Shown here: positions 4,851 to 8,531 of the stretch, in pieces
Layout: each line of letters starts with the position of its first letter
How positions within the stretch are numbered: the stretch's first letter is position 1
Assembly (NCBI GenBank): GCA_029879725.1
Contig: JAOUPR010000011.1
Location: 1 to 58,972 of the forward strand
Direction of reading: 5' to 3'
Length of the DNA: 58,972 bases
Origin: Gemmatimonadota bacterium
GTDB taxonomy: Bacteria > Gemmatimonadota > Gemmatimonadetes > Longimicrobiales > Gaopeijiaceae
Notes under the pieces: model-generated
Databases searched by the model: none
Seen by the model: only the letters and a program-made list of their open reading frames with translations
What the model was told of the DNA's origin: nothing
Made by a program: the position numbers and the translations under genes

Positions 4851-6763
<1,913 letters not shown>

Positions 6764-6764
<1 letters not shown>

Positions 6765-7516
6765 TGAATTTCACGCTCCACGTCTGGCGGCAGGACGGTC
6801 CCGAGGTCCCCGGTGGCTTCGAGACGTACGAGGCCCGCGACATCAGCGAACACATGTCCTTTCTGGAGATGCTGGACCTGGTGAACGAAGGGCTCACCCA
6901 CGACGGCCACGAGCCCGTCGCCTTCGAGCACGACTGCCGCGAGGGGATCTGCGGTTCGTGCGGGATGATGATCAACGGCGTGCCCCATGGCCCCAAGGGG
7001 ATGGTGGCGACGTGCCAGCTCCACATGCGGAGCTTTCGTGACGGCGACGAGATCTGGATCGAGCCGTGGCGGGCCACGGCGTTCCCGGTGCTCCGCGACC
7101 TCGCCGTGGATCGCGGCGCGCTGGACCGCATCATCGACGCGGGGGGGTACATCTCGGTGCGTACCGGAAGCCCCCAGGACGCCAACGCGCTCCTCATCCG
7201 CAAGGAGGACGCGGACCTGGCCATGGACGCGGCCCAGTGCATCGGGTGCGGGGCCTGCGTGGCGGCCTGTCCCAACGCTTCGGCCATGCTCTTCACCGCG
7301 GCCAAGGTGAGCCACCTCGGCCTCCTTCCGCAGGGTCAGCCCGAGCGCTACACGCGTGTGCTGGACATGGTGACGCAACACGACCGGGAGGGTTTCGGGA
7401 ACTGCACGAACCACGGGGCGTGCCAGGAGGCGTGTCCCAAGGGGATCAGCGTGGACTTCATCGCGCGCCTGAATCGCGACCTGGTCGTGTCCACGTGGAA
7501 GACCGCGGGTGACTGA
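6764..7516 (+). CDS. sdhB: Succinate dehydrogenase iron-sulfur subunit
   Basis: SdhB relays electrons from SdhA flavin to the SdhC hemes through three iron-sulfur clusters. The [2Fe-2S] ligands are Cys58, Cys63, Cys66 (CREGICGSC) and Cys84. The C-terminal ferredoxin domain holds [12 protein letters not shown] for the [4Fe-4S] cluster and [12 protein letters not shown] for the [3Fe-4S] cluster. The 250-residue length is normal for the group. It ends the sdhCAB operon; eleven bases downstream a new promoter starts the Asn-leader/tRNA-Asn unit. Confidence 0.96.
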
Positions 7517-7526
7517 GTCCGCCGCC

Positions 7527-7555
7527 TTGACACCCGACCCGTCCGGGACGAGAAT
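7527..7555 (+). promoter_or_regulatory. Candidate promoter of the Asn-leader/tRNA-Asn unit
   Basis: A perfect TTGACA (7527-7532) is followed after 17 bases by GAGAAT (7550-7555), a poor -10 box. This would put the first transcribed base at about 7562, next to the leader ATG at 7563. The -35 match is strong, the -10 weak, so the exact start is uncertain. Confidence 0.45.
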
Positions 7556-7562
7556 GGCTGCC

Positions 7563-7640
7563 ATGAAGCGTGATCGCCTGAACCGGAATTCCAATTGGAA
7601 TCGCAATCCCCGCGGGGGCTGCGACGCCGGATCGGTATAG
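7563..7640 (+). CDS. Asn-rich leader peptide of a putative tRNA-Asn attenuator
   Basis: This is a 25-codon ORF in the gap between sdhB and tRNA-Asn. From codon 7 every second codon is asparagine: codons at 7581, 7587, 7593, 7599 and 7605 (peptide NRNSNWNRN). Four of the five are AAT, a codon a GC-rich genome should avoid. The stop TAG at 7638-7640 falls just after a segment (7614-7635) able to pair with the 5' arm of the downstream terminator. That is the design of leader peptides that sense a charged tRNA by ribosome stalling. ATG 7563 may be leaderless given the predicted transcription start; an in-frame ATG at 7554 is the alternative. Translation and function are inferred, and no known family is recognised. 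Confidence 0.6.
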   Translation: MKRDRLNRNSNWNRNPRGGCDAGSV

Positions 7641-7679
7641 CGTAAGCGCGCTGAGGAAGACCGAACCGGCCGCGGCCCC
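7614..7679 (+). promoter_or_regulatory. Antiterminator fold of the Asn attenuator
   Basis: Bases 7614-7635 can pair with 7661-7679 to give about 18 base pairs: four G-C pairs, five pairs including one G-U, five pairs, an A/A mismatch, then four pairs, with bulges at one G (7614-7618 run) and at 7624-7625. The right arm (7661-7679) contains the whole 5' arm of the terminator at 7667-7679, so the two folds exclude each other. The left arm begins six bases after the last Asn codon and ends two bases before the leader stop codon. A ribosome stalled on Asn codons would leave it free; one reaching the stop would cover it. Confidence 0.6.
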
Positions 7680-7706
7680 GACGAGGGGGCCGCGGCCGTT
7701 TTCGTT
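7667..7706 (+). terminator. Strong intrinsic terminator between Asn leader and tRNA-Asn
   Basis: A perfect 13-bp GC-only stem (7667-7679 with 7686-7698) with a six-base loop is followed by TTTTCGTT (7699-7706). It lies 26 bases after the leader stop and 58 bases before tRNA-Asn. No convincing promoter is seen between it and the tRNA, so tRNA expression would require readthrough. It could alternatively just end the sdh transcript. Confidence 0.85.
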
Positions 7707-7764
7707 AAAGGACGGCCCTCCGAGTTGCCGATACTCGAAGCGTCGCGGGAGATGCGGGAACCGA

Positions 7765-7837
7765 TGGGGTGTAGCTCAACCGGCAGAGCGCCTGGCTGTT
7801 AACCAGGAGGTTGGTGGTTCGAACCCACCCGCCCCAG
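7765..7837 (+). tRNA. tRNA-Asn (anticodon GTT)
   Basis: A complete cloverleaf can be drawn: acceptor stem 7765-7771 with 7830-7836 (one G-U), D stem 7774-7777 with 7786-7789, anticodon stem 7791-7795 with 7803-7807 around the loop CTGTTAA with anticodon GTT at 7798-7800, variable region 7808-7812, and T arm 7813-7817 with 7825-7829 around TTCGAAC. The discriminator base is G7837 and CCA is not encoded. It reads AAC and AAT, the codons enriched in the leader ORF upstream. Confidence 0.97.
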
Positions 7838-7843
7838 TGAAGA

Positions 7844-7883
7844 GAAGAGGGGTGTCCGGGCCATCGCCCGGACACCCCTCTTC
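7844..7883 (+). terminator. Perfect 18-bp hairpin, probably bidirectional terminator
   Basis: Bases 7844-7861 are perfectly complementary to 7866-7883 with a four-base CATC loop. It begins seven bases after tRNA-Asn and lies 22 bases from the end of the convergent Pal-like gene. T runs are short on both sides (GGTTTCC on plus, TTCAC on minus), but the position between convergent units supports termination in both directions. Confidence 0.75.
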
Positions 7884-7904
7884 GGTTTCCCCGGAGGGAC
7901 CGGG

Positions 7905-8531
7905 TCACAGGGTCAGGTGATCGATGACCAGGGCCACCCGGCGGTTCTCCCACCCGTCGGCTCCGGGCCCGTGCGTTCCTGGCACGATGATCCGAGGCGT
8001 GTTCTCGCCGTAGCTCACGGCACGGACCTGATCGGCGGACAGGCCGCCCCGGGTCGTGAGGTAGCCGCGCACGGCGTCGGCGCGACGCTGGCCGAGGCGA
8101 ACGTTGTAGTCCGACCCTCCCGCCGGGTCGGCGAACCCTTCGGCGGTGATCGTGGCGGTGGGATAGTACTGGGACACCACCGAGGCGAAACGATCGAGGA
8201 TGCGGGTGTCGTTCTCGTCGAGCTCCGCCCGGTCGAACTCGAAGTAGACCGGGGCGTTGAAGCGTATGGCCGACTCGAACCGCTCCATGGACCCCCCGAC
8301 CTCACCCTGCAGGTCGGCCAGAGCCCGTTCCAGCGCGTCCACGCGCCGGCTCAGAGCGTCCACCCGCGACGTCACACCGTTGTCTCCGTCGGCGATCTGC
8401 TGGGACATCTCGTCCCGCAGTTGCTCGAGTTGGCTGTCCAGATCCTCCTGCTTCACGCTGGCACACCCCGCCACCAGCCCCGCCACCACCAACACGGCCA
8501 GGCTCCGCGGAGTCTTGCTGAATCCCATCAT
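7905..8531 (-). CDS. OmpA/Pal-family peptidoglycan-binding lipoprotein
   Basis: This 208-residue protein starts with a lipoprotein signal peptide: lipobox LVAGC with Cys23 as the expected acylated residue. Residues ~25-75 form a heptad-like coiled coil (QLEQLRDEMSQQI, SRRVDALERALADLQ). The C-terminal half is an OmpA-like domain (YFEFDRAELDEN, NVRLGQRRADAVRGYL) that binds peptidoglycan non-covalently, tethering the outer membrane to the wall. The coiled coil between anchor and OmpA domain recalls Lpp/Pal hybrids or trimeric YbgF-like modules. ATG at 8529-8531 is chosen because AGGAGG lies six bases upstream; an adjacent ATG would remove one residue. It is transcribed divergently from the FKBP lipoproteins and has no tol genes beside it. 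Confidence 0.88.
   Translation of the reverse strand: MMGFSKTPRSLAVLVVAGLVAGCASVKQEDLDSQLEQLRDEMSQQIADGDNGVTSRVDALSRRVDALERALADLQGEVGGSMERFESAIRFNAPVYFEFDRAELDENDTRILDRFASVVSQYYPTATITAEGFADPAGGSDYNVRLGQRRADAVRGYLTTRGGLSADQVRAVSYGENTPRIIVPGTHGPGADGWENRRVALVIDHLTL

Follow-up and report, generated by a model that had tools for sequence, protein, structure and literature searches.

A tRNA-Asn(GUU) gene of a Gemmatimonadota bacterium is very probably controlled by a trp/his-type attenuator, in which a translating ribosome decides whether transcription continues and the regulated product is the tRNA. This reading is held in the absence of expression data. Sequence comparison shows the parts of the putative attenuator, their conservation, the covariation of both predicted folds and their recurrence in two phyla, while the stalling of the ribosome, the direction of the switch, the physiological signal and the response to tRNA charging are inferred, with no experiment behind them. 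The DNA analyzed, hereafter the window, is a stretch of 58,972 nucleotides that forms contig 35 of a 94%-complete genome of 3.94 Mb.

Parts of the tRNA-Asn leader and the proposed switch

The leader promoter, the attenuator and the tRNA-Asn gene lie downstream of sdhB, which ends at position 7516, and all of them are on the forward strand. The sigma-70-type promoter (TTGACA-17-GAGAAT, 7527-7555) agrees with the consensus at 10 of 12 positions and is the sole sigma-70-like match between 7300 and 8000. As this promoter puts the predicted start at 7562-7563 (the A of the leader's start codon), the leader mRNA is predicted, from promoter position only, to be leaderless or nearly so. The small ORF (7563-7640, ATG at 7563 and TAG at 7638-7640) has 25 codons, encodes MKRDRLNRNSNWNRNPRGGCDAGSV and has orthologous leaders in 13 relatives. 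Its presumed regulatory codons are five Asn codons at 7581-7607, each alternating with another codon, namely AAC at 7581 and AAT at 7587, 7593, 7599 and 7605. A density of at least five Asn per nine codons is reached by only one in about 118,000 nine-codon segments of the window sequence read in six frames, and this one is the leader.

We folded two segments of the RNA. In the first (7605-7680), an antiterminator of 19 bp forms between 7615-7636, within the final codons of the leader ORF, and 7660-7679 (-42.5 kcal/mol, z -3.3). In the second (7652-7706), from which the leader and about 11 nt beyond its stop codon were removed, an intrinsic terminator forms at 7667-7706 (-37.9 kcal/mol, z -4.6), its stem consisting of 13 G-C pairs (7667-7679 with 7686-7698) around a 6-nt loop and being followed by TTTTCGTT, a U-rich tail. 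The two structures have 7667-7679, the terminator 5' arm, in common. Downstream lies the tRNA-Asn(GUU) gene (7765-7837; ARAGORN; Rfam RF00005, 68.9 bits), a "type B" sequence (TGGGGTG...CGCCCCAG, with U1-A72 and G73), and the transcription unit is closed by a predicted 18-bp hairpin at 7844-7883 (-41.3 kcal/mol). The preliminary description had named these parts, the promoter excepted, and each was recovered no more than 1-2 bases from where it had been placed: the 25-codon ORF with five Asn in nine codons, four of them AAT, the stop at 7638, the antiterminator (given as about 18 bp), the perfect 13-bp terminator with its T run and common arm, and the tRNA-Asn(GUU) with its closing hairpin.

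The arrangement suggests the following switch. Transcription would start at or next to the ATG of the small Asn-rich ORF, and a ribosome would load on the 5' end. With plentiful Asn-tRNA-Asn, the ribosome would reach the stop codon and cover the antiterminator 5' arm, the terminator would form and the tRNA would not be made. If the Asn codons are read slowly, tRNA-Asn being scarce or poorly charged, the ribosome would instead stall just upstream of this arm, allowing the antiterminator to form and polymerase to read through into tRNA-Asn. The outcome would be a negative feedback, in which tRNA-Asn is kept at a level set by how fast its own codons are decoded. Since the signal would be the rate of Asn decoding, such a loop would correct a shortage of the tRNA and also, where GatCAB makes Asn on the tRNA, a shortage of Asn. 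A single tRNA-Asn was found in one Patescibacteria genome scanned (G430); full termination would be lethal there, and the effect must therefore be graded. In the window genome, a second tRNA-Asn without attenuator (described below) weakens the need for homeostasis.

We also looked for ORFs rich in the cognate codon upstream of tRNA genes from the window genome, from G020 (not all of its tRNAs) and from G430. Among the regions scanned, a convincing leader with a terminator was found for tRNA-Asn only. One candidate, upstream of a tRNA-Pro (L192), was rejected: it has 5 Pro codons but no terminator, and lies in a Pro-rich, GC-rich context.

Distribution in the family and selection on codons and folds

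We collected tRNA-Asn loci across the family of the window genome. Results showed the attenuator directly upstream of tRNA-Asn in 14 of 121 genomes, distributed over 7 genera, each leader having 3-6 Asn codons together with an antiterminator and a terminator. The relatives that have the element are labelled Gemmatimonadota, Longimicrobiales or Gemmatimonadales. A covariance model recovered 13 of these 14 genomes, the remaining one (G002) being identified by reading the upstream sequence, and gave no strong match outside the family when run against 154 genomes of the order and 395 of the phylum. Two weak matches were set aside, L094 as a false positive and L095 (G135) as a degenerate remnant, in which the mdh stop codon is followed by the leader end and the terminator, with no tRNA found in the locus. 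Several relatives (L059, L067, L073-L075) have a similar promoter directly before the tRNA and no attenuator. As the element is patchy and many close relatives use a promoter without it, this control must be dispensable, and the patchy presence together with the G135 remnant means that the system was gained or lost repeatedly.

Those loci have a bearing on a rival account, in which the terminator merely ends the sdh or mdh transcript, the tRNA has its own promoter and the Asn-rich ORF is incidental. It would fit the observations that in relatives without attenuator the same tRNA is transcribed from a promoter close by, and that in L095 a terminator remnant is all that is left after mdh. Against this, the sigma-70-like search of 7300-8000 gave no promoter match at 7707-7764, between terminator and tRNA. 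Each of the 28 attenuator loci from both phyla does have a TTGA(C/T)-type promoter with 16-18 spacing before its leader. In several loci the terminator abuts the tRNA, its end being no more than about 10 nt away in L045, L046 and L077, so that the terminator must be read through, with no room for a second promoter. Moreover, the cassette of leader, antiterminator and terminator remains linked to the tRNA even where the upstream gene differs, this being sdhB in the window and, as read from the sequence, mdh in several relatives (for example L003, L012, L032 and L033). We consider this account very improbable and retain the attenuator.

The Asn codons appear to be selected as such. Of the 13 rows of alignment A2, 9, 12, 13 and 11 have AAT or AAC at the four core Asn columns, respectively, and both codons occur in three of the four columns. 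Variation at the Asn columns is thus only synonymous in most rows, while most of the interleaved codons encode many residues. The two folds show the same signature. In the Gemmatimonadota alignment, 90.8% of the antiterminator cells are paired, against 35-51% when the arms are slid by 1-3 columns, and five pairs are changed on both sides; for the terminator, 98.7% of the cells are paired and four pairs are changed on both sides. An alignment-free swap test gave the same picture, as the Gemmatimonadota leaders pair more stably with the terminator arm of their own locus than with arms taken from relatives (mean -30.3 against -25.5 kcal/mol, p=0.005), and the Patescibacteria leaders likewise with their own partner than with swapped ones (-13.9 against -9.6 kcal/mol, p=0.0003). 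Pairing beats dinucleotide shuffles at p<0.05 in 26 of the 28 loci, all 14 of Gemmatimonadota being at p<=0.04. By comparison, then, both the Asn codons and two mutually exclusive predicted folds are under selection.

In each of the 28 loci, 6-11 nt separate the -10 box from the leader ATG, so that a leaderless or almost leaderless mRNA is expected in both phyla. The preliminary description had proposed an alignment across relatives, expecting the Asn codons to be kept while the spacers vary, with covariation in each of the two folds, and this is what we obtained. It had also held that relatives lacking the Asn codons, or a promoter between 7707 and 7764, would speak against an attenuator; the Asn codons are present in the relatives in which the attenuator is retained, and no promoter match came up in that interval.

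Recurrence of the design in Patescibacteria

We scanned 84,980 species for four alternating Asn codons lying 124-184 nt upstream of a tRNA-Asn anticodon loop. Among the 18 matches, five have a real tRNA-Asn, with a terminator in between in all five; four of these belong to Gemmatimonadota and one to a Parcubacterium (L115), and all have the attenuator. The other 13 were discarded as chance, as they have no tRNA-Asn with an Asn run upstream. Pattern scans of IMG/VR returned 13 contigs, none with a tRNA-Asn according to ARAGORN, leaving phage-borne copies unsupported.

Looking at the relatives of L115, the design was found in 14 of 22 tRNA-Asn loci, L115 included. The 14 Patescibacteria leaders have 4-7 Asn codons, encode peptides such as MKYTLANNNNNNAPSGM and MQHLNCNNNNNNQLISG, each up to its stop codon, and in most carriers the terminator lies just before the tRNA. 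An additional 1:2 helix, pairing the ORF start with the stop-codon region, is supported in this group (-11.2 against -7.8 kcal/mol, p=6e-5), and is not conserved in Gemmatimonadota (p=0.48). No resemblance is seen between the sequences of the two groups, and on these grounds convergence cannot be told apart from a very old common origin. The recurrence in a second phylum is in line with the attenuator first put forward for the window locus.

AsnRS is encoded in all 14 Patescibacteria carriers. In three of them (L250, L251 and L252, from G431, G462 and G433), about 120-165 nt separate the attenuated tRNA from a downstream asnS, which may have a promoter of its own. In L115 (about 6381-6540, reverse complement; the same locus as L118), the attenuated tRNA-Asn is nested in the anticodon arm of another tRNA-like sequence, whose outer halves are called as a tRNA by ARAGORN when the insert is left out.

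The comparison of both phyla also bears on what the leader senses. It might respond to a general slow-down of translation, caused by a drug or by starvation, and not to the decoding of Asn. Some leader-peptide attenuators do answer ribosome-targeting drugs, for example that of B. subtilis bmrC/D (PMC4191407). In both phyla, however, the regulatory codons match the downstream tRNA and are kept as Asn, and they sit a few codons upstream of the antiterminator. We regard a general sensor as improbable and favor the decoding of Asn as the signal.

Asparagine synthesis and known attenuation systems

The genome of the window encodes AsnRS (489 bits), GatB (523 bits), one bacterial-type AspRS and a GlnRS-like protein with a GatB-like C-terminal domain (L098, G000:C139), a layout known from Deinococcus GlnRS; no AsnB was found above the cut-off. 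It also has a second tRNA-Asn, of "type A" (TCCGGCG..., G000:C5:15319-15391, L182), which has a plain promoter and no attenuator. In the family, GatB was found in 30 of the 34 genomes tested, including all 14 with the attenuator, two of the 30 by partial matches only. A full-length type B tRNA-Asn is present in 29 of the 30 genomes with GatB (G024 has halves only), and the four genomes without GatB all lack type B and have AsnB. This co-occurrence of type B with GatB makes a link to transamidation plausible.

We asked what the regulated tRNA is for. The attenuator may serve Asn biosynthesis and not tRNA homeostasis, type B being the scaffold for AspRS and GatCAB and type A being charged by AsnRS. 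Besides the distribution of GatB and type B, this is supported by the absence of AsnB above the cut-off in 9 of the 14 attenuator genomes, the window's included, and by the presence of GlnRS, so that GatCAB is not needed for Gln. In bacteria that have AsnRS, GlnRS and GatCAB and lack AsnA/B, tRNA-dependent Asn synthesis has been argued to be likely (PMC4206432), and the gene set of the window genome fits this as far as AsnB is concerned. On the other side, the U1-A72 pair is shared by type A, genomes with and without GatB cannot be told apart by the AspRS residues compared, AsnB is present in five attenuator genomes, and the Patescibacteria version comes with AsnRS and with just one tRNA-Asn in the only genome scanned. 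We find this role possible, without giving it the better chance; it is plausible but unproven. The preliminary description had reasoned that, if Asn were made only on tRNA, the circuit would control an amino acid pathway. GatCAB is indeed there and AsnB was not found above the cut-off, as this idea supposes, but AsnRS and a second, unattenuated tRNA-Asn are also encoded, so that the biosynthetic part of this idea finds only partial support.

Some incomplete type B copies were seen as well. A 94%-identical one is cut by the contig edge in genus g26 (G087:C39:1-54), both tested members of which lack GatB, G087 not being among them. Half-length copies occur in G024 (C34:63430-63469 and C12:45939-45980), with similar ones in G020, G104 and G030, and are possibly integration scars.

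Leader-peptide attenuation is classical for amino acid operons and some synthetases (PMC2965389; PMC1183508). Three features expected of it are present at these loci: a short ORF rich in cognate codons (3-6 Asn in Gemmatimonadota, 4-7 in Patescibacteria), an intrinsic terminator between leader and regulated gene, and an antiterminator that shares a terminator arm and whose second arm is placed where the leader ORF ends. As in trp/his attenuators, a cognate-codon leader peptide is combined with exclusive antiterminator and terminator folds having a common arm, and in Patescibacteria with a 1:2 protector helix as well; unlike them, a tRNA is regulated here instead of an enzyme operon, the leader is predicted to be leaderless, and no conserved 1:2 helix was found in the Gemmatimonadota version. 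The leaders of synthetase genes, such as the His leader of hisS paralogs in bacilli (PMC2965389), likewise place the charging system of one amino acid under its own codons, whereas here the tRNA is the first, and usually the only, regulated product. T-box riboswitches also hold charged tRNA at a set level by choosing between terminator and antiterminator (PMC2494555), but here sensing would occur by translation, there is no tRNA-binding specifier domain, and the tRNA (RF00005) was all that Rfam recognized, in the window as well as in nine related loci, with no T-box match. A leaderless attenuator RNA beginning at the leader ORF ATG is known from S. meliloti trpL (PMC7298713), which controls trpE(G) and not a tRNA. 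We found no description of an attenuator of a tRNA gene in the open-access literature, in agreement with the preliminary description, which knew of none. What would be new is therefore the class of target, a tRNA gene; ribosome-mediated attenuation itself is known, and the putative element passes those of its criteria that sequence can address. A broader proposal, which we hold only tentatively and rate below an even chance, is that translation-coupled attenuation of tRNA genes is recurrent, possibly convergent, and that in GatCAB-bearing Gemmatimonadota it constitutes an Asn-biosynthesis switch, the gene under control being that of a second, dedicated tRNA-Asn that would carry the synthesis of asparagine.

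The output of bacterial tRNA genes is generally ascribed to growth-rate control and copy number. If our reading is true, a tRNA gene that gauges how its own codons are decoded would directly explain the matching of single tRNA levels with demand. Its occurrence in two distant phyla, including the genome-reduced Patescibacteria, suggests a wider, overlooked class, and the finding that the attenuated tRNA type occurs together with GatCAB provides a testable link to tRNA-dependent asparagine synthesis.
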